Translations under genes and position numbers: made by a program
The notes under the pieces: generated by a model
The model's database searches: none
The model's input: the letters and a program-made list of their open reading frames with translations, nothing else
Told to the model about the DNA's origin: nothing
Source: Bacteroidales bacterium
GTDB taxonomy: Bacteria; Bacteroidota; Bacteroidia; Bacteroidales; UBA932
Assembly: GCA_028724885.1 (NCBI GenBank)
Contig: JAQYTJ010000055.1
Location: 1 to 64,000 of the forward strand
Direction of reading: 5' to 3'
Length of the DNA: 64,000 bases
In this document: piece after piece, positions 1 through 43,060 of the stretch
How positions within the stretch are numbered: the first letter of the stretch is position 1
Layout: each line of letters opens with the position of its first letter

Positions 1-72
1 CATCCTGACCAACCCACCCACCGTCATCCTGCCCAACCCACCCACCGTCATCCTGAACTTGATTCAGGATCT
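1..72 (+). repeat. Modular 24-bp repeat: three units ending in the palindromic unit CATCCTGAACTTGATTCAGGATCT; truncated by window start
   Basis: Units 1-24, 25-48 and 49-72 align: CATCCTGACCAACCCACCCACCGT / CATCCTGCCCAACCCACCCACCGT / CATCCTGAACTTGATTCAGGATCT. Confidence 0.85.
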
Positions 73-22576: not shown

Positions 22577-23392
22577 ATGAAGAATCTTTTAAGCATTTTT
22601 TTCATTGCTGTGGTTTTGTCTGGCATTACGTCATGCGCTAGGCACGTAGAAAGCACTTTCGTGGCTATCCCTTTCGTGGATGACCTTCTCGCAGATTCGC
22701 TTCCTGCGTTAAAGTCCTATGCCGCATTATCCGGCAAAACCACTGGCAGCATTGCTCTAGTAGGGGATCCATCCGAATGCCTGAAGGTGAGCGAGGAACT
22801 CATGACTTCGGATAAGTTCGATAATGTGGATGGCCGCAAAGTTTCAGATGGCCTGCCAGATTTCGCTGGCGAGACTTTTGTTTCCATCCTGGACTTGTAC
22901 GACGCACCTTTCGACAGCATAATATTCAAGAGAGATTCTGTGGCATTAAGAGAAATTTCTGTTCGCGACTGCGTTTATGCTCTGGATACTTCTTTCAGTT
23001 TCACTCCGTACGGCGGTCGTGCATCTATCTCGAAAGGCTCCCCGAAAGTGCTGGTGGTTTGCTCTCCATTAGTGACAGAGTGTGCTATAGCCGATATTGA
23101 AGATTTCTTTTCTAAGATAGGGTGCCAGATTCCAATCATCTGTTCAACGGACACCGCATATTCGTATTCAGAATCACTCTATTCCCTTCTTAGGCAAAAG
23201 AATATGTTCACTCACGACATCGCATATCCTTCTGCTGAGGGCTATGTTGTAGTGCCTATGGATGACAGTTCGATGTCACTAAATTCTGTCCTTGTCAGCT
23301 TTGACGAGGGCTTCATCCCAATTGAATACCCAGATTCTGTGTCCATATGGTCAGTTGCTCCAAAAACCGTGGAATCGTATGTTCAAAAATAG
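22577..23392 (+). CDS. Hypothetical lipoprotein
   Basis: 271 aa ORF with signal MKNLLSIFFIAVVLSGITSC; overlaps the exonuclease start. Confidence 0.7.
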   Translation: MKNLLSIFFIAVVLSGITSCARHVESTFVAIPFVDDLLADSLPALKSYAALSGKTTGSIALVGDPSECLKVSEELMTSDKFDNVDGRKVSDGLPDFAGETFVSILDLYDAPFDSIIFKRDSVALREISVRDCVYALDTSFSFTPYGGRASISKGSPKVLVVCSPLVTECAIADIEDFFSKIGCQIPIICSTDTAYSYSESLYSLLRQKNMFTHDIAYPSAEGYVVVPMDDSSMSLNSVLVSFDEGFIPIEYPDSVSIWSVAPKTVESYVQK

Positions 23393-24269
23393 TATTACTC
23401 CGGAAGAAATAGAAAAGCTGCAGCTGGCTAGTTTTAAGGGCAAGATAAAAGTAATCAATAGGTTAGGATTGGATTTCATTCTGGCAGTCAGGTACTTGAA
23501 AAAGCAGAAGATCATCGGTTTCGACACTGAATCTAGGCCATGCTTTTCTCCGAATCAGCATCACTATGGTGTCTCGCTTCTTCAGCTTTCTGGGGAAGAC
23601 GAGGCGTTTCTTTTTAGGATAAAACTTATGGGAGGAATCCCGAAGCCGCTCAGGAATATTCTCTCGAACGAGAAGATCTTGAAGGTCGGTGCAGCTGTGA
23701 ACGATGACGTACACGGGCTGCGGAAGCATCACGATTTCGAGCCTGGTGGTTTCGTGGATTTGCAGAAGGTGGTCTGGGAATATGGCATCAAGGATAAGAG
23801 CGTTAAGAAAATGAGCGCAATCATTTTGGGTTTTCGGATTTCCAAGAGCCAGCAGCTTTCGAATTGGGAAGCGGGCAGACTTTCAGAGTCGCAGAAGCTT
23901 TATGCTGCGACTGATGCTTGGGTCTGCCTGAAGATGTACAAGAAGCTTTTGGCTTCTGAGAAACACCCTCTGACTCCAGAGGAAATGCTTCCGAATCCGC
24001 CGAAACAGCATATAGCTGTTCCTACGGCTAATTCGGTATCTGCGTCAGCCAGCTCAGTTGCGGCGGCGCATAGTTCAGCGCCTGCGGCAGACCCCTCAGT
24101 TTCGACGACTTGCAGTTCGGCTTCTGCGGCAGACCGCCCTGTTTCGACGAAGCGCAGTTCAGCGCCTGCGGCAGACCGCCCTATTTCGACGAAGCGCAGT
24201 TCAGCGCCTGCGGCGCGCAAACAAAAAGGTGCCGTTTCTGCCACCAATCGTTCCGTCAAACATAAATGA
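23379..24269 (+). CDS. 3'-5' exonuclease (RNase D/WRN-like) with repetitive low-complexity C-terminus
   Basis: DEDD motifs (IGFDTESRPCF, VNDDVHGLRKHH, YAATDAWVCLKMY); start MFKNSITPEE at 23379 preferred over 23292. Confidence 0.85.
   Translation: MFKNSITPEEIEKLQLASFKGKIKVINRLGLDFILAVRYLKKQKIIGFDTESRPCFSPNQHHYGVSLLQLSGEDEAFLFRIKLMGGIPKPLRNILSNEKILKVGAAVNDDVHGLRKHHDFEPGGFVDLQKVVWEYGIKDKSVKKMSAIILGFRISKSQQLSNWEAGRLSESQKLYAATDAWVCLKMYKKLLASEKHPLTPEEMLPNPPKQHIAVPTANSVSASASSVAAAHSSAPAADPSVSTTCSSASAADRPVSTKRSSAPAADRPISTKRSSAPAARKQKGAVSATNRSVKHK
24072..24220 (+). repeat. Intragenic 42-bp tandem repeat (about 3.5 copies)
   Basis: AGTTCAGCGCCTGCGGCAGACCGCCCTGTTTCGACGAAGCGC iterated; protein SSAPAADRPVSTKR repeats. 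Confidence 0.85.
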
Positions 24270-25618
24270 ATATGACTAAGATTATTCTGAAAAAGGGTAG
24301 GGAAGAGTCTCTTCGCAGGTTTCATCCATGGGTGTTCTCCGGTGCTATCGCTCAGATCGTGGGTGAGCCAGCGGAAGGTGATATCGTGGGTGTTTTCGCT
24401 TTTGACGGCTCATTCCTAGCATATGGCCATTATCAGATAGGCTCAATAGCCGTCAGGGTGCTCAGTTTCAACGGAGAAAATCCCACGAAGCCGGAATTTT
24501 TTATGCATATGCTGTCGAAGGCTCTGCACCTTCGCATTGCCGCCGGACTGGCAAGTTTTGGTCATCCTGACCTGAGAAACGATAGTCATTCTGAACAAAC
24601 CACCCACCGTAATCCTGAACAAGCCACCTACCGTAATCCTGAACAAACCATCCACCGTCATCCTGAACTTGATTCAGGATCTAATCCTACCAAGAATCCT
24701 GTTACAGGATCTGTCACGAACTGCTATCGCCTAGTGCACGGCGAGGGAGACGGCCTGCCAGGTCTAATCATAGACTTTTACGATGGCGTTTGTGTGATGC
24801 AAGCACACTCCGTAGGTATGTTCAGAGCAAAAGAGGCCATCTGTAATGCGCTAAAACAGATTTACGGAGACTCTTTGAAGGCGGTTTACGACAAAAGTTC
24901 CGGCACAGCCCCTTTTAAGGCGGGACTGGACTTAGTGGATGGATACATTTATAAAACTGATGGTTTTTCTGATGACGAACAGGTCGTTCAGGAAAACGGT
25001 CATGAATTCCTAGTTAACTGGACCGAAGGTCAGAAAACAGGATTTTTCCTAGACCAGAGAGAGAACAGGCTGCTTACGGAAAAATATTCAAAGGGACGCA
25101 ATGTCCTGAACCTTTTCTGCTACACAGGCGGCTTCTCCGTCTATGCCCTTGGCGGCGGCGCCGTTCACGTCGACTCGGTAGACAGCTCTAAGAAAGCCAT
25201 TGACATGGTTTCTAAGAATATGTCGCTGAATGGCTTCGAGAACTCCTCCCACTCGGAGTTCTGCGAAGACGCTATGGAATATCTTGCTAAAGTGCCTGAG
25301 GACAAATATGATCTGATGATAGTGGACCCTCCTGCATTCGCAAAGCACAGGGGCGCTTTGAGCAATGCCCTGAGGGCATATCAGCGACTTAATGCTGCAG
25401 CTATTTCCAAAGTGGCTCCAGGAGGCATCATATTCACTTTTAGCTGTTCTCAAGTAGTTGATAAAGAGGCGTTTGCCCTTGCCGTATTCTCTGCTGCAGC
25501 TCAGACAGGCAGGAGCGTTCGCATTCTGGATCGCCTGAACCAGCCCGCAGATCATGCAGTGAACATCTACCACCCCGAAGGTGAATACCTGAAAGGCCTT
25601 CTTCTTTACGTGGAATAA
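24266..25618 (+). CDS. rlmI: 23S rRNA (cytosine-C5)-methyltransferase RlmI-like SAM-dependent methyltransferase with in-frame repeat insertion
   Basis: PUA-like N-term (RFHPWVFSGAI), NCYRLVHGEGDGLPGLIIDFYDG, TGFFLDQRENRLL, VLNLFCYTGGFSVYA, LMIVDPPAFAKH, FTFSCSQ. Confidence 0.93.
   Translation: MNMTKIILKKGREESLRRFHPWVFSGAIAQIVGEPAEGDIVGVFAFDGSFLAYGHYQIGSIAVRVLSFNGENPTKPEFFMHMLSKALHLRIAAGLASFGHPDLRNDSHSEQTTHRNPEQATYRNPEQTIHRHPELDSGSNPTKNPVTGSVTNCYRLVHGEGDGLPGLIIDFYDGVCVMQAHSVGMFRAKEAICNALKQIYGDSLKAVYDKSSGTAPFKAGLDLVDGYIYKTDGFSDDEQVVQENGHEFLVNWTEGQKTGFFLDQRENRLLTEKYSKGRNVLNLFCYTGGFSVYALGGGAVHVDSVDSSKKAIDMVSKNMSLNGFENSSHSEFCEDAMEYLAKVPEDKYDLMIVDPPAFAKHRGALSNALRAYQRLNAAAISKVAPGGIIFTFSCSQVVDKEAFALAVFSAAAQTGRSVRILDRLNQPADHAVNIYHPEGEYLKGLLLYVE
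24563..24712 (+). repeat. Modular repeat array (five 24-bp units plus one 30-bp unit) inside the rlmI reading frame
   Basis: Units at 24563, 24587, 24611, 24635, 24659 (24 bp each) and 24683-24712; translates HPDLRNDS/HSEQTTHR/NPEQATYR/NPEQTIHR/HPELDSGS/NPTKNPVTGS. Confidence 0.93.
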
Positions 25619-28411: not shown

Positions 28412-29476
28412 ATGGAATTATATGAATATGCCAGGCCAGCTCTGATGGCAGGCAAGAAGATACTTTATTTGCACGGCTTCGCCTCAAGCGGTGCGACGGG
28501 AAGCGTCGGCACCCTGCGGCTGCTTATGCCGGAATGCCAAGTGATTGCGCCAGATCTGCCCGTGGAACCCTCCGAGGTTATGAATATGCTGAGGGCATTA
28601 GTCGCCTCGGAGAAGCCTAACCTCGTCATCGGGACGTCGATGGGAGGGATGTATGCTGAAATGCTTTATGGAATAGACAGGATTCTGGTGAACCCTGCAT
28701 TCCAGCTTGCGGATACAATTCTTAAGCATAACGGCTTGGGTCGCCAGGATTTTCACAATCCGCGCGCCGACGGACAGATGTCGTTCCTGATAACGAAAGG
28801 TATGATAGAAAGTTTCCGGGAGGTCTCCTCGCATTGTTTCGAAAAGGCTCCAGAAGACTCCGCCAGGGTATATGGGCTTTTCGGCATTCACGACGACTTG
28901 GTGCATACGTTCGATCTTTTCTCTCAGCACTATCCTCAGGCCATTCGCTTCGATGGCGAGCATCACTTGAACGATGATGCCATTCTCCACTCGCTCCTGC
29001 CTGTCGTTCAGTGGATTGACGATCGTCAAAGGGGAGTCTCCCGCAGGGTCATTGTAATTGCCCTAGGCGACAAGATAGTGAATCATTCCAGCGGCTTCCG
29101 AAAAGCAGTGGAGATTTTATCACAGTCCTACGACATTCATATTCAGGCATCTGTGCCTTACAACCATCCGTCTGGGATTTCCGATGCTGCCAATAGGGAT
29201 GACAGGGAGTCATGGGGAAGCATGGGCTGTGCAGATATTTTTTCTTGGTGCGAACGCGAGCTGGGCGTGCCAGTATGGAACAGGGTCACCATAACGAACC
29301 ATAAAGAATTACTCCTCGCGGATTACCTGATTGACGGCGAGCCTGGCGTGAATGGCGGTTGTCCGACCGATGACAGTCCGGCAGGCTTCATGGGCACTCT
29401 CATCGAATACGGCTCCGATGCCTTCAAGTCTTGGGAAGACATCATTGCCTATTTCTCCCGCCTAGGCGGGCAGTAA
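28412..29476 (+). CDS. Fusion: YqiA-like alpha/beta hydrolase plus C-terminal 5'-nucleotidase/HAD-like region
   Basis: N-term YLHGFASSGATGSVGTLR, GTSMGGMYAEML; C-term VTITNHKELLLADYLIDGEP...GFMGTLIEYGSDAFKSWEDIIAYF resembling deoxyribonucleotidase C-terminus. Confidence 0.8.
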   Translation: MELYEYARPALMAGKKILYLHGFASSGATGSVGTLRLLMPECQVIAPDLPVEPSEVMNMLRALVASEKPNLVIGTSMGGMYAEMLYGIDRILVNPAFQLADTILKHNGLGRQDFHNPRADGQMSFLITKGMIESFREVSSHCFEKAPEDSARVYGLFGIHDDLVHTFDLFSQHYPQAIRFDGEHHLNDDAILHSLLPVVQWIDDRQRGVSRRVIVIALGDKIVNHSSGFRKAVEILSQSYDIHIQASVPYNHPSGISDAANRDDRESWGSMGCADIFSWCERELGVPVWNRVTITNHKELLLADYLIDGEPGVNGGCPTDDSPAGFMGTLIEYGSDAFKSWEDIIAYFSRLGGQ

Positions 29477-29502: not shown

Positions 29503-31665
29503 TCAGTCGCTCAGCCGTTTGACCGTCTTGGTTATTTCTTTCCTTAGTCTTTCTGTGCAGTTTGACGTTCCAAGATAATCATTTAGCTCGTCTTTGATGG
29601 CTGCTCTAGCGGATGAGCGGTTGTACCAGCCGAGGGTTTCAGCTGCTGCTACCCTGAGTTCTTCAGGCTCATCATTACCCTTTACTATGTCCAGCAGGGG
29701 CCGGGCTGCCTTAATATACCTATTGTTCCTGAATGTCCTTATCGCAGACATGCGTTTCTTGGAAGATGCTGACTCATCGGACAAGGTTTCAACATTGCTG
29801 TCGAAATATTCATAGCCACTGATGATATGCATTGCATCTTCCGCCTGCATCTGAACCCTTGTCAGCTCGGGGTGGGATGCCTTCAGGGTTTCAAGGGATG
29901 AGAAGATTTCATCTCCGCTGCCATATTCGGCACTGAAAAGGCATGCATCCCTGACCACAAGCTCGAAAGGGTCTTTCAACGCCGTCAGAATAGCATCGCT
30001 GGAATTAGCATCGGCAAGGGAGCGCAGTACGTCAAATGCGGTAACCCTTACCGGCCAGGATTGGTCATTCTTGAGCATGTCCAGAGCCTCGTCCGAAATA
30101 GAAGCAGCGTTTTTGCTGCCTTCCAAGGCTGAATATCCCAGATGCGCTATTCCCAGGCCTCTTTCAATGTAGGATGTAACCTCTTCTTTCTTCTTGCCTT
30201 CCTTCAGGTAGTTCCGCCAAGTCTTCTCATTCAGGGCATTCGCCGTAAGGTCGAATGACAGCCTGTCCCTCAGCTGTTCTTCGAACTTGTCGTGCGGAGT
30301 GAACCTGTAGGTAGGGTCTCCGATAAGATGGGCCTCCAGGTAAGGGACTTCCTTGTGCCACTGCCCGATGCGGAGGCCGATTGACAGCATGCCCATCATC
30401 TTGTCTTCAAGCTTGTCCTGAAGCACATTCACCGTGTTCCCCTGTGCCACCACGCAATCGCCGTCTCCAAATACGTGGACTCCTGCCACATAGCCGTCGG
30501 GATTATGGAATGACCCATTGTAGCATGCGTTGAATATCACGAACTTGGGATTGCTTTTTACGTTTATGATTTCTTCCTGTAAGATGTTCGCGTTCCGCTC
30601 CTTTACGGAGTCGGTTGCAGCAATCTCTGCCAGGGACGAGTCCGACAAGACGTTTCTGTTCAGATGAAAGATGGAGTCCAGGGCTTCGTGCAGGAATGCC
30701 TCTTCATCTTCCGTGCCTTTCACCCGCTCGTATTCTCTGGTAAGTACCTGCTTGATAATGAAGAGGTTCGCATCGGCATCTGTTGAGTAGTTTTCCCAAT
30801 TGATATATTGAGTCTCAGGAGCCCCATGTTCGGAGAACTGGAATATGTCGGTTCCTTTTCTCTGAAGTTCGGAAAAGAGCATCCATTTCATCTGCGGATC
30901 CTGATAGTGAGTCATGAAAGTGTTGCCAGAAGAATGCTTGAAAGCATATGGGAAGAATTCCTTGTATTCCACAGCTTTCTGCCTCCAGATGTTCAGGTCG
31001 TCGGAATTGTAGCTGTCTCCGAAGAAGAAAGATATCTTGTCAAGATATTCGGAAGACTTGTGCGCCTCCACCACTTTCCTGAGATATTTCTTCATTAATG
31101 AATATTTCATATTGGCATCCTGCCCTTTTAGCATGATGGCTGGAACCCTCATCCTTGCAGAATAGATGTCTGGCCTTAGATGCTGAGCCCCTTCTTCGGA
31201 GAGTCTGTAGAAGAACCGTCCGGCGCAGGTGGTGTCTTCCCCTATGAAATCGAACTTGAGGTCGAAATCATCGTAGAATCGATCCGAAGCCACGCTTGAT
31301 TCTTGAGGAGGGAAGGTGGATTCGTTCATCTTGAATGCTGTCGTAAGGTGCTGGCCTTCGCGAACCATGACTATCGGGACATCTCCGACAAGAACTATCC
31401 CCTCCAGAGGACATTTCCTGTCGGATGCAAGATCTAATATGGCGGCTTTCACTTCGTCAGGATTCTTCCAGTCCCTGGCTACGATTTTTGCCTGAAGGCC
31501 CTCGGAGATAAGTATGTTGCGATATGCTTCCAGCTCTTTCGTGCATTCCTGAAAAGTTTTATTGTCAGCAATGATTCCGAAAGAAGTCTTGCGCGGTCCG
31601 GCGAATGATGCGATGCAGACCGTCATGGCAAGGAAAAAGAGTATTGTGTTTGCTATAGTTCTCAT
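29503..31665 (-). CDS. C25 (gingipain-like) cysteine peptidase with HEAT-like C-terminal repeats, copy B
   Basis: Signal peptide; VLVGDVPIVM, SDRFYDDFDLKFD, catalytic His FSEHGAPETQYI, catalytic Cys VIFNACYNGSFH; C-terminal alpha-solenoid repeats. Confidence 0.75.
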   Translation of the reverse strand: MRTIANTILFFLAMTVCIASFAGPRKTSFGIIADNKTFQECTKELEAYRNILISEGLQAKIVARDWKNPDEVKAAILDLASDRKCPLEGIVLVGDVPIVMVREGQHLTTAFKMNESTFPPQESSVASDRFYDDFDLKFDFIGEDTTCAGRFFYRLSEEGAQHLRPDIYSARMRVPAIMLKGQDANMKYSLMKKYLRKVVEAHKSSEYLDKISFFFGDSYNSDDLNIWRQKAVEYKEFFPYAFKHSSGNTFMTHYQDPQMKWMLFSELQRKGTDIFQFSEHGAPETQYINWENYSTDADANLFIIKQVLTREYERVKGTEDEEAFLHEALDSIFHLNRNVLSDSSLAEIAATDSVKERNANILQEEIINVKSNPKFVIFNACYNGSFHNPDGYVAGVHVFGDGDCVVAQGNTVNVLQDKLEDKMMGMLSIGLRIGQWHKEVPYLEAHLIGDPTYRFTPHDKFEEQLRDRLSFDLTANALNEKTWRNYLKEGKKKEEVTSYIERGLGIAHLGYSALEGSKNAASISDEALDMLKNDQSWPVRVTAFDVLRSLADANSSDAILTALKDPFELVVRDACLFSAEYGSGDEIFSSLETLKASHPELTRVQMQAEDAMHIISGYEYFDSNVETLSDESASSKKRMSAIRTFRNNRYIKAARPLLDIVKGNDEPEELRVAAAETLGWYNRSSARAAIKDELNDYLGTSNCTERLRKEITKTVKRLSD

Positions 31666-31667
31666 AT

Positions 31668-33875
31668 TCAGTCTTTTCTGTATTCATTCAACCTTGCGAT
31701 AGATTTCCTTATCTCCCAATCTATGGCCCCAGGGTATTTCCCGACCATTTCTTCCAGTCCCGAGACGATTCCAGAGCGGTTCCATGCATGTATGTACCAT
31801 CCCAGAATTTCTGCGCTGCTGATACGCACGTCGTCAGGCAGGCTTTCGTCCGATACAAGCTGGAGAAGGTTGCCTGCATATTCAGGATATGGATAATTCT
31901 TCATCATCTCAATCAGCCTGGCTCTTCTCTTTCCATTCTTATCGAACAGACCGCTAATGATATATTTCTTCATTCCGATAGATTTCAGCACTTTATCTCT
32001 TCCGTACCAGGAGTTGTCGCTGAGTTTCCCTTCCTTCCCTGGAGTCGTGAATATGAAATCTTCCCCAGAACGGACCTTGTCGAATTCTTCAAGGAACAGG
32101 CTGTCTCTGAAGAAAGGAGCGTTGTTCTCTATGTTGAAGGCTATCCTCTTTGCGTTAGCGTCCGCGAAATACTGTCTGGCGAGGAGTTCGGCATCCGAAT
32201 CTTCGCCCCTCATGCCTAGGAATGTGACTACTTTTCTCCTTATGTATTCGTAAGGGTCGTCAAGCGCCACTCTCATTGCCTGAGGCAGCTCTGGCGTGTC
32301 GTAATACTGGAGGAGCTTCAGGCATTGAAGCCTCAGCATGTATGAATCACTGCTTTCGTATGTGTCCAGCAGCAGTTTCGGCATCCCCTCAGCATTCAGC
32401 ATGCTGCATTTTTGTAGAGCCAGCCCACGTATATCCAACGGGTATTTTTCATTTGTATATTCCTTCCAGTAGCCAGGATCGTCGTTGGATAGGTCCGGGC
32501 GATGGAAATCGGAATGGAAATGGAATGTTGGATCGCCCATGACATGTGATTCCAGAATCGCGCTCATCTGATGCCATTCGCCAATCGTGTATCCCAGCGT
32601 CATCATTCCAAGAAGATAGCTGGAATGCTTGTCCTGGAGCACGTTCACGGAATTTCCGATTGCGGCGATGCTGTTGCCTTTGCTGAATATGTAACGGTTG
32701 GCGATGCAGTCGGATTCCCTGAAGTCAGCATTGTAGCAGGCATCGAAGATGGAAACCCTTACTGCAGGATTAGCGACCCTGACATCGCTGAGGACTATGC
32801 CAAGTTTCAGGTCCGTCAGTGAATCGGCGCGGACAACATCCGGGTCGAAAGCATCGACCACCCATGTGGAATCTATCTCAGGATATTTTTTGAGCATGTA
32901 CGCCTTTGCTTCCTCCTCGCTCTCTCCGTATCTGACATGGTTCCTTGCGACTGCCCTGATCGACAATCTTGCGGAATTATAGGCCTCTTCATCGTCATTG
33001 GCTATCGGGGCGCTCTGAATCCATTGACGGTCTGGCGTCCCATGGTGGTGGAACAGAAACAGGTCCAGAGAAGGGTCTGCGGCAGTTCTCAAAAGAGTGT
33101 CCTTGATGTAGGGATATTGATGGAATTGGAAGAACTTTGCGCCGTCGATGCTTTTGAAGGCATCTGGAATCTGCTCGCGAAGCGTTATTCCTTCATCTTT
33201 CCATGCGATCATGCAGTCTGAGAAAGAGCCGGCTCCTGTGTATGAAGCTACCCTGTCAAGAGTGTTCTCCCTGTCTTCGGCCTTGAGTCTTACCACCTTC
33301 CTGAGATATTCAGAGAGCTCCTGATACTTGTCGCCATAGTCTGCGGAAGGTTTTATCCTGCCACTGAATATGTCGCATTGGATTCTCTGCCGGCCTTCCG
33401 GAGACAAATCATAATAGAAAAACCGGGTCTCTACGGAATCCCGCTTCACGAAATCGAATTTCAGGTCGAAATCATCATAAAATCTGTCGGAAGGCACGGA
33501 GGTGTCTCTCCATGGAAAAGATTTGCTGTTTTCATCCATCTTGAAAGCGGAAGTGAGGAACTGCGCTTTCCTGATCATGGGGATTGGAATATCTCCGATG
33601 AAAACCACGCCGGCAAGATTCTTTTGAGCGTACCATTTTCGAATCGAGTCTCGCACCGCCTCTGGCGTAGCCCATGCTTCATGAGCCACGAATGAAGCAA
33701 AACCGTCGGCTTGCACAGACTTGGCATACGCCAAGATTTCTTCTGAACACTTGCCCCAGCTCTCGTCATCGACAATTATCGCAAATCCGTTTCTGCTGTC
33801 AGCGAAGGTGCCGGTTGAGCAAATGGCGAGAAAAAACATAAAAAATAGACGTCTCATGGTAGAATCTGATTTCAA
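31668..33875 (-). CDS. C25 (gingipain-like) cysteine peptidase with HEAT-like C-terminal repeats, copy A
   Basis: Signal peptide; VFIGDIPIPMI, SDRFYDDFDLKFD, LFHHHGTPDRQWI, SIFDACYNADF; start may be Met7 at 33857. Confidence 0.75.
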   Translation of the reverse strand: MKSDSTMRRLFFMFFLAICSTGTFADSRNGFAIIVDDESWGKCSEEILAYAKSVQADGFASFVAHEAWATPEAVRDSIRKWYAQKNLAGVVFIGDIPIPMIRKAQFLTSAFKMDENSKSFPWRDTSVPSDRFYDDFDLKFDFVKRDSVETRFFYYDLSPEGRQRIQCDIFSGRIKPSADYGDKYQELSEYLRKVVRLKAEDRENTLDRVASYTGAGSFSDCMIAWKDEGITLREQIPDAFKSIDGAKFFQFHQYPYIKDTLLRTAADPSLDLFLFHHHGTPDRQWIQSAPIANDDEEAYNSARLSIRAVARNHVRYGESEEEAKAYMLKKYPEIDSTWVVDAFDPDVVRADSLTDLKLGIVLSDVRVANPAVRVSIFDACYNADFRESDCIANRYIFSKGNSIAAIGNSVNVLQDKHSSYLLGMMTLGYTIGEWHQMSAILESHVMGDPTFHFHSDFHRPDLSNDDPGYWKEYTNEKYPLDIRGLALQKCSMLNAEGMPKLLLDTYESSDSYMLRLQCLKLLQYYDTPELPQAMRVALDDPYEYIRRKVVTFLGMRGEDSDAELLARQYFADANAKRIAFNIENNAPFFRDSLFLEEFDKVRSGEDFIFTTPGKEGKLSDNSWYGRDKVLKSIGMKKYIISGLFDKNGKRRARLIEMMKNYPYPEYAGNLLQLVSDESLPDDVRISSAEILGWYIHAWNRSGIVSGLEEMVGKYPGAIDWEIRKSIARLNEYRKD

Positions 33876-34025
33876 ATGTGAAAACTAACCAATCCAATCA
33901 TCACTATCCTAGAAAGGAAGGTTCGTTCAATGAGCCTTGCGGCAAGGAAGGCACAAATAAATGAAATTAAAATGGAAGAATCAAAGCTGTCGTGGGAAAA
34001 TCATTATAAATGGGTATGCCCTTGT

Positions 34026-34982
34026 TCATTCAGGCCTTGCGATGAGGCAGCGGGAAAGTTTCTCGGCATTTTCTGGTTTCAGTATGCCAGCTTTGGAGAG
34101 AGCTTCCACGGACCATTGTTCTGGAGGGGTGTTATTCCTGAATATGACAATGGCATGCGCTGCATATTTGCCGATGTATGGGTGCTTTGCGAGCTGCTCT
34201 TCTGGAAGTTTCCATAATGGGTACGGGGTTGTGGCTGATGGGTTTATGAATATGAGATCTTTCAGGCCGTCGTATTTTTCATGGTCGAAGTGCCAAATGT
34301 CCATCAGTTGCTCTGGATATGAATATCCTCCCAGCTCTTTTCGGTAGCTTACCATTTTGGAAGCGAAATATTTCCCTATTCCTGGCAGAGTCTCGAATGT
34401 GGCTGAGTCGGCTGTATTGAGGTCGATGCGAGGGATGTCGATATATGGTTCAAGGCGCTGATAAACAGAATCTTCTACCACGTAGGACTTCGCAAAGTCG
34501 CTCTTTCGCCTGAAACGTCCGCCCTTTTGGCGATAATTATCGATTGCCTGGGCTTGTTTCTGCGTGAATCCCAACCGCATCAGATCATCGATGCTGGCAG
34601 TGTTCGGATTGAACCTGAAGCTCTCGAAACGTCTTGGCGTGTTTGCCAGTCTTATTGCCTCTGCCTTCTCGCTATGCTCGGAATTTTTCCTCACGTAAGA
34701 TGGTTCTGGAGCTGTTTTGCTGGAATTAGATCCTGAACCAGGTTCTTTACTTTGCTGGACTTGGTCATGCGTCTCCTGACCACTGCCTTCCGGAGGTTCG
34801 GAGTAAACGAAAACCGTGTCCGGATGGTCATGATTTGCGACAATCTTCTCAACGGCAGCATGGTGAATGAATAATGCGATTTGGTAACCAATGATTAGAA
34901 ATACCAGAGCGATGGAACCGATTATGAAAGATGCGGAAGGGGTTCTTTTCTTATCGTCTTGAGATTTATTCGAGCCTTTCAT
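34026..34982 (-). CDS. Helix-hairpin-helix (ComEA-like) domain protein with N-terminal TM helix
   Basis: HhH repeats: FNPNTASIDDLMRLGFTQKQAQAIDNYRQKGG, IDLNTADSATFETLPGIGKYFASKMVSYRKELGG. Confidence 0.88.
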   Translation of the reverse strand: MKGSNKSQDDKKRTPSASFIIGSIALVFLIIGYQIALFIHHAAVEKIVANHDHPDTVFVYSEPPEGSGQETHDQVQQSKEPGSGSNSSKTAPEPSYVRKNSEHSEKAEAIRLANTPRRFESFRFNPNTASIDDLMRLGFTQKQAQAIDNYRQKGGRFRRKSDFAKSYVVEDSVYQRLEPYIDIPRIDLNTADSATFETLPGIGKYFASKMVSYRKELGGYSYPEQLMDIWHFDHEKYDGLKDLIFINPSATTPYPLWKLPEEQLAKHPYIGKYAAHAIVIFRNNTPPEQWSVEALSKAGILKPENAEKLSRCLIARPE

Positions 34983-42337: not shown

Positions 42338-42440
42338 AGATCCTGAATCAAGTTCAGGATGACGGGGCGGAACGCTTGGGATGACGGGGTAAATCGTTCT
42401 GGATGACCGGGTTCGCGATGACGGCGTCGGTCGTACAGGA
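42338..42440 (-). repeat. Palindromic repeat unit plus diverged ~22-bp modular units
   Basis: AGATCCTGAATCAAGTTCAGGATG then ACGGGGCGGAACGCTTGGGATG, ACGGGGTAAATCGTTCTGGATG and further degenerate units. Confidence 0.8.
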
Positions 42441-42941: not shown

Positions 42942-43060
42942 GCTTGACCCGGAATCTGGGCTCGTTTGTCCCCGTCATTCCGGACTCGATCCGGAATCTA
43001 GGCTTGCGAAGAACAGATCCTGAATCAAGTTCAGGATGACGGGGCAGGTCGTTCGGGATG
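42942..43060 (-). repeat. Cluster of palindromic repeats and modular units
   Basis: CCGGGCTTGACCCGG, CCGGACTCGATCCGG and AGATCCTGAATCAAGTTCAGGATG (43015-43038), with GATGACGGGG-type linkers. Confidence 0.8.

Follow-up and report, generated by a model that had tools for sequence, protein, structure and literature searches.

Results

Two adjacent genes for predicted proteases in a Bacteroidales contig

The window analyzed here is a stretch of 64,000 nucleotides from a Bacteroidales bacterium (assembly GCA_028724885.1, contig JAQYTJ010000055.1, positions 1 to 64,000). It carries two adjacent minus-strand genes whose products, termed A and B, are predicted to be exported proteases with a gingipain-like core and a C-terminal HEAT solenoid. 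A first-pass annotation, made from the DNA and its open reading frames (ORFs), had described the pair as paralogous C25 proteases. Both ORFs were found where it had placed them, A at 29503-31665 and B at 31668-33875, with a gap of 2 bp. The longest ORF of B does run from a TTG at 33875 (735 aa), but the ATG at 33857 (729 aa) is the likelier start because relatives begin there. A full-length alignment of A and B (29% identity, E 1e-90) confirmed that they are paralogues. The two proteins and their parts are as follows.

29503..31665, minus strand: protein A, predicted C25-HEAT protease of the D2 type (720 aa, ATG start; from the ORF, AlphaFold2 and clade)
30316..31587, minus strand: A, predicted gingipain-like catalytic core (residues 27-450; AlphaFold2 and Foldseek)
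30826..30828, minus strand: A, predicted catalytic His280 (after strand 274-278; invariant in the A3 sequence set)
30523..30525, minus strand: A, predicted catalytic Cys381 (after strand 375-378; invariant in the A3 sequence set)
29509..30288, minus strand: A, predicted HEAT solenoid (residues 460-719; HEAT_2, AlphaFold2)
31668..33857, minus strand: protein B, predicted C25-HEAT protease of the D1 type (729 aa from the ATG; from the ORF, Pfam, AlphaFold2 and clade)
32517..33788, minus strand: B, predicted gingipain-like catalytic core (residues 24-447; AlphaFold2 secondary structure, Foldseek match to Kgp)
33042..33044, minus strand: B, predicted catalytic His272 in HG (after predicted strand 266-270 by DSSP; family conservation)
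32736..32738, minus strand: B, predicted catalytic Cys374 in ACYN (after predicted strand 368-371 by DSSP; family conservation)
31683..32477, minus strand: B, predicted HEAT solenoid (residues 461-725; HEAT_2, paired AlphaFold2 helices, alphaRep/HEAT profile matches)

The dyad motifs reported for the pair, HHHGTPDRQW and SEHGAPETQY at the His and DACYNADF and NACYNGSF at the Cys, were found exactly. The motifs SDRFYDDFDLKFDF and GN[S/T]VNVLQDK are indeed common to A and B, but these mark the family as a whole and are not specific to the pair. The strong divergence that had been noted between the dyad residues was also present. In the segment spanning B residues 286-370 (735-aa numbering), identity between A and B is 12%; it is 37% ahead of the catalytic His, 42% between the Cys and the solenoid, and 23% in the HEAT region. 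Both genes are under purifying selection, and the ratio of nonsynonymous to synonymous substitution rates (dN/dS) against the nearest relatives was 0.06-0.11 for B and 0.13-0.16 for A. With dN/dS of 0.06-0.16 and both dyads intact, an artefact or a pseudogene pair was ruled out.

In the profile searches, HEAT_2 (Pfam) matched both proteins, whereas Peptidase_C25 (Pfam) matched B narrowly (25.9 bits against a cut-off of 23) and gave no match to A; the NCBIfam profiles had no name for either. Each protein starts with an ordinary signal peptide and lacks both a lipobox and a tail of the type IX secretion system (T9SS). Neither Por_Secre_tail nor another T9SS C-terminal domain was matched in A, B or the scanned relatives, in line with the earlier description of a HEAT-like C terminus and no obvious sorting domain. 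A viral sequence collection contained no relatives of A or B.

Predicted fold and catalytic dyad

Structures were predicted with AlphaFold2 from alignments of 70 (B) and 67 (A) relatives, and both models were confident (B, predicted local distance difference test [pLDDT] 91.7 and predicted template modelling score [pTM] 0.90; A, pLDDT 92.2 and pTM 0.88), each showing a gingipain-like core followed by a HEAT solenoid. In Foldseek searches of the PDB, the top match of the B model was gingipain K (Kgp, 4rbm; E 7.5e-7, TM-score on target 0.50), and that of the A model was gingipain R (RgpB, 1cvr; E 1.3e-5, TM-score on target 0.54). The other high-ranking matches were mostly HEAT, alphaRep or armadillo proteins. 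The catalytic His and Cys of clan CD follow strand ends, and the His and Cys of both A and B lie just past the ends of predicted strands. Across the family, His and Cys are separated by a median of 101 residues, a stretch that includes a helical insert. The predicted core starts at residue 24 in B and residue 27 in A, leaving no N terminus of propeptide size.

A sequence search of solved structures returned HEAT and alphaRep proteins only, with no gingipain match; the assignment to C25 is thus based on fold and dyad, together with the marginal Pfam match. On these models, A and B almost certainly have a gingipain-like fold, and they are predicted with good confidence to be catalytically active proteases. 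The core-plus-solenoid architecture first suggested from the motifs is thus upheld by the confident models, by the gingipains as top PDB matches and by a dyad that is nearly invariant in the family. The first-pass annotation had named failure to predict such a core, with His and Cys in contact, as refuting its view, and for the core the prediction succeeded.

An ancient family of three paralogues

To place A and B, 205 relatives, mostly 30-45% identical to B, were aligned and used for a tree. The His and the following Gly were present in 205/205 sequences and the Cys in 204/205. Among the members scanned, HEAT_2 was found in 66/67 and 39/41, and Peptidase_C25 in 4/41 (E <= 0.01, window B included) and 1/67 (E <= 0.1). 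The three copies of Bacteroides finegoldii are named "hypothetical", "HEAT repeat domain-containing" and "hypothetical" in RefSeq. Because the Pfam C25 profile misses most members and the RefSeq labels are of this kind, the protease nature of the family is largely unannotated.

The tree resolved three clades with supports of 100, 99 and 98, namely D1, which includes B, D2, which includes A, and U/D3. Clade membership tracks gene position in the operon, indicating that the duplications predate the spread of the family in Bacteroidales. A and B therefore belong to an ancient three-paralogue family that is widespread in Bacteroidales and reaches other Bacteroidota. At least 563 encoding stretches were present in a species-representative collection, including those of rumen and digester organisms. 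Some U-clade members have a lipobox (e.g., L040 and L044), whereas most of the proteases have none.

In five loci, adjacent copies form one fused ORF (1230-1452 residues), and the layout is alike in four of these; such fusion of neighbouring copies fits joint action. Two interpretations of the pair had been offered earlier. Two related proteases with separate targets would be compatible with the ancient, separately conserved clades; that one acts on the other received no support, since each protein keeps its dyad and there is a third clade.

Linkage with a TonB receptor, DUF4876 and DUF6850

The neighbourhood analysis showed that, in relatives, the protease genes are conserved within an operon that also encodes a TonB receptor, a DUF4876 lipoprotein and a DUF6850 outer-membrane protein. 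This context is deleted beside the window pair and had been missed in the first-pass annotation. The receptor, DUF4876 and DUF6850 were all present in 52/53 loci with enough flank (49 by ORF calling and three more by a six-frame check). Four testable loci at first seemed to lack parts of the module; three of these proved to be ORF-calling errors, and L063 was a real exception. L063 carries five tandem C25-HEAT genes, and no receptor module lies within the stretch examined.

In an order-wide sample of 294 genomes, the family was found in 15 and DUF6850 in 54, and all 15 were among the 54 (p about 1.5e-12); the protease and DUF6850 genes were directly adjacent in 13 of the 15 family-positive genomes. 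The family is also present outside the class, where the order receptor-DUF4876-DUF6850 was seen in 4/5 loci examined. The function of A and B is therefore very likely tied to the receptor module.

Two gene orders were usual. One is [U]-receptor-DUF4876-DUF6850-D1-D2[-D3]; in the other, receptor-DUF4876-DUF6850-D1-D2 is followed by an unnamed protein of ~490 aa and often by an HmuY-like lipoprotein. The DUF4876 proteins had a lipobox in 72/78 cases. The ~490-aa proteins form an exported family (e.g., L035:8626-10116 and L049:14274-15752) that lies between the proteases and HmuY in many loci, and the one member scanned gave no Pfam match. Outside the class, in L174-L178, YCF48/BNR propeller proteins with T9SS tails lie between DUF6850 and the protease, with M16 nearby in some. 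The long genes beside C25-HEAT genes outside the class were considered as extra proteases and rejected, since they encode these propellers. A promoter scan found no more than chance.

Other peptidases were encoded by sister modules. Several DUF6850 modules without C25-HEAT genes instead contained M16, S46, C69 or met-zincin peptidases, and outside the class M16 genes adjoin C25-HEAT genes. No FusC-type M16 protease was found at the window locus, whereas M16 occurs in some sister loci. In Pectobacterium, the M16 protease FusC frees iron from imported ferredoxin (PMC6071955), and receptor-protease pairs have been named "protease-associated import systems" (PMC6793856). In L166, L168, L169, L171 and L173, proteins of ~520 aa with Mfa_like_1 (fimbrillin) and Fib_succ_major domains directly follow DUF6850, and no C25-HEAT gene is present.

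Local loss of the receptor genes in the window genome

In the relatives L045-L047, the same flanking genes enclose receptor-DUF4876-DUF6850-B-A, and the flanks and A/B are 92-98% identical to those of the window (blastn). Upstream, these relatives have genes for proteins of 236 aa and 318 aa, followed by the TonB receptor. The corresponding features of the window are as follows.

33807..34033, minus strand: replacement junction, ~230 unrelated bp of 38% GC where L045/L047 have ~5.8 kb with the receptor, the DUF4876 lipoprotein and DUF6850
34026..34982, minus strand: helix-hairpin-helix protein (318 aa), upstream flank, conserved beside the operon in relatives; outside the system
28412..29476, plus strand: UPF0227/abhydrolase-like protein (354 aa), convergent downstream flank, conserved; outside the system

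The ~230-bp replacement also alters the start of the signal-peptide coding of B. Elsewhere in the genome (98.5% complete), the closest receptor is 32% identical and lies on contig C36 in an intact second operon, receptor-DUF4876-DUF6850-C25-HEAT-490 aa-HmuY. Since close relatives keep the lost genes and the relative G212 has both operons complete, loss of the receptor module is local and probably recent. An assembly collapse between the two operons is unlikely, as C36 has no detectable DNA similarity to the lost genes and no close receptor copy was present. The window proteins A and B either serve the intact C36 operon or are recently orphaned.

Two further modules were observed in the same genome. 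At L129:5059-15863 (G000 contig C53), in a second protease-linked module of a different type, receptor-DUF4876-DUF6850 is followed by M16 and S46 peptidases, with C69 upstream. At L128:7073-13371 (G000 contig C1), a third module comprises a receptor, a 137-aa protein, DUF6850 and a DUF4876 protein with BACON domains, and no peptidase was recognized adjacent to it.

Probable connection with iron and haem

Published expression data connect such loci with iron. BT1933-39 of B. thetaiotaomicron, annotated as transposase, hypothetical proteins, HEAT repeat protein, DUF4876 and TonB receptor, is upregulated 3.5-7.4-fold in low iron, and PG1019-22 of P. gingivalis (DUF4876, TonB receptor, hypothetical) is upregulated 21-215-fold (PMC10434189). 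In a second data set, a DUF4876 gene of P. gingivalis that lies next to HmuY is listed with the genes whose expression differed most between hemin conditions (PMC10470040). The order and annotation of BT1934-39 match the six-gene operon of B. finegoldii and other Bacteroides, from which BT1934-39 is apparently a homologous operon. HmuY-like lipoproteins were found in several loci, including the C36 operon of the window genome. These results suggest that the module is probably linked to iron or haem. In L173, L188 and L193, iron-sulphur (Fer4_5) proteins of 640-670 aa adjoin DUF6850 modules, which also hints at a role in handling iron.

Repeats elsewhere in the window

The sequence CATCCTGAACTTGATTCAGG occurs in four exact copies at window positions 49-68, 24659-24678, 42342-42361 and 43019-43038, with none expected by chance. 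Two copies adjoin 24-bp tandem units (1-56 and 24591-24668), and one copy with its tandem lies in frame within a methyltransferase-like ORF (24266-25618), adding "THRNPEQ...HPELDSGS". A separate 42-bp tandem array of 3.4 copies at 24072-24214 codes for the Ser/Ala-rich C terminus of a 3'-5' exonuclease-like ORF (23292-24269).

Discussion

Proposed role of A and B and alternative explanations

We propose that A and B are the processing arm of a receptor-DUF4876-DUF6850 module used under iron scarcity. The receptor complex would capture and import an iron- or haem-bearing protein or peptide. A and B, exported by ordinary signal peptides and without surface-sorting tails, would meet this cargo in the periplasm, where the HEAT solenoid may hold the extended chain or dock on the receptor complex. 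Cleavage of the cargo by the separately conserved active sites would then set free metal or cofactor along with peptides, and would make import one-way. Iron-responsive, protease-coupled TonB uptake, analogous to FusABC and with A and B in the periplasm, is our preferred explanation, put forward tentatively, and cleavage of imported cargo in the periplasm is held with similar caution; activity, location, cargo and solenoid function are what we infer from the genes and models. A broader version is doubtful: a phylum-wide, FusABC-like protein-import machine of Bacteroidota for iron or haem piracy, in which an ancient set of two or three gingipain-fold HEAT proteases would be the periplasmic cutting and pulling engine of the receptor/DUF4876/DUF6850 complex, with M16 or S46 interchangeable.

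Several points weigh against this proposal. The receptor genes are absent beside the window pair, and the linkage is drawn from relatives. Some DUF6850 loci have no adjacent peptidase, including ones with fimbrillin-like proteins, and BT1934-36 are apparently homologous to the family, judging by gene order and annotation. YddB, the E. coli member once grouped with FusA, is presumably PqqU. PqqU has been reported as an importer of pyrroloquinoline quinone (PQQ; PMC12124388), which weakens the published case for protein import, so a protease beside a receptor is no proof of protein import.

Four other roles were weighed. A and B could act at the surface or outer leaflet, cutting host or dietary proteins outside so that the receptor complex can take up the peptides or the stripped haem; gingipains serve HmuY/HmuR of P. 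gingivalis in this way. The gingipain-like predicted fold, the HmuY-like lipoproteins of several loci and the lipobox of some U-clade members would agree with this. However, A and B, like most relatives, carry an ordinary signal peptide and neither a lipobox nor a T9SS tail, and a scan of the genome for SprA, the T9SS translocon, gave no match, although the controls of that scan were also silent; a surface role is therefore considered unlikely. It is still less probable that A and B are maturation proteases, cutting the receptor, DUF4876 or DUF6850 proteins during complex assembly instead of cargo. Tight linkage with DUF6850 and the separate maintenance of three clades would be expected in that case, but the window A and B are intact though the receptor, DUF4876 and DUF6850 genes are gone, and many DUF6850 modules have other peptidases in place of C25-HEAT, which resembles cargo processing.

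General periplasmic peptide nutrition, in which oligopeptides are an amino-acid source and the iron link is incidental, is improbable to the same degree. The S46 dipeptidyl-peptidases and C69 dipeptidases of sister modules and the rumen and digester organisms among the members point in that direction, whereas the iron regulation in B. thetaiotaomicron and of the P. gingivalis DUF4876 loci, together with HmuY in several loci, points away from it. A protease adjoining a TonB receptor would also suit a defence that destroys bacteriocins parasitising the receptor. We regard this as very improbable, because nutrition is suggested by the iron regulation and by the repeated replacement with M16, S46 or C69 peptidases, and no immunity-type gene was seen.

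Comparison with known systems

Scattered proteins of gut, rumen and environmental Bacteroidota that had been labelled "hypothetical" or "HEAT repeat" are brought together here as a defined protease family whose genomic role is conserved, and the proposed mechanism gives a testable answer to what cargo the iron-induced DUF4876/DUF6850 receptors of Bacteroides and Porphyromonas import. If it is true, proteolysis-coupled import of proteins or peptides, known from plant-pathogenic Pectobacterium, would be common in a gut-dominating phylum. The apparently homologous operon in B. thetaiotaomicron VPI-5482 makes the idea directly testable.

With the gingipains RgpB and Kgp (MEROPS C25, clan CD), A and B share the predicted core fold and a His-Gly plus Ala-Cys dyad at strand ends. 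They differ in carrying a HEAT solenoid, whereas gingipains carry an Ig-like domain and a T9SS tail, and in having no room for a long propeptide, as the core starts right after the signal peptide. The spacing between His and Cys is ~33 residues in gingipains but ~101 residues in the A/B family, with a helical insert.

The Fus system is not known to include counterparts of DUF4876 or DUF6850. FusABC (PMC6071955, PMC6793856) is nevertheless similar in that a protease is encoded with a TonB receptor (in relatives of the window pair, the receptor being lost in the window), that a homologous-looking Bacteroides locus is reported to be iron-regulated, and that M16 peptidases are found both in sister DUF6850 modules and, outside the class, next to C25-HEAT genes. 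It differs in that each locus described here encodes two or three C25-HEAT proteins, which would be cysteine proteases belonging to a different clan, that the Bacteroidota receptor has a CarboxypepD_reg domain, and that protein import by the Bacteroidota module is a proposal. HmuY/HmuR and the gingipains of P. gingivalis resemble the present loci in the HmuY-like lipoprotein of several loci, in iron control and in a gingipain-like protease; the receptor operon is another one, and A and B are probably periplasmic rather than T9SS-secreted.

The iron-stimulon loci PG1019-22, BT1933-39 and BT3631-33 (PMC10434189) contain the same DUF4876 and receptor genes, and BT1933-39 is annotated like a C25-HEAT operon, but the published lists call the neighbours hypothetical or HEAT repeat proteins, leaving their protease nature unrecognized. 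The pairing of C25-HEAT proteases with the receptor, the three paralogues and the HEAT solenoid were not found described in the open-licence literature, a search that left most subscription journals and preprints uncovered. Both the fold family and the concept of proteases linked to receptors have precedents, and what appears to be new is their combination, with three ancient paralogues and a HEAT solenoid.

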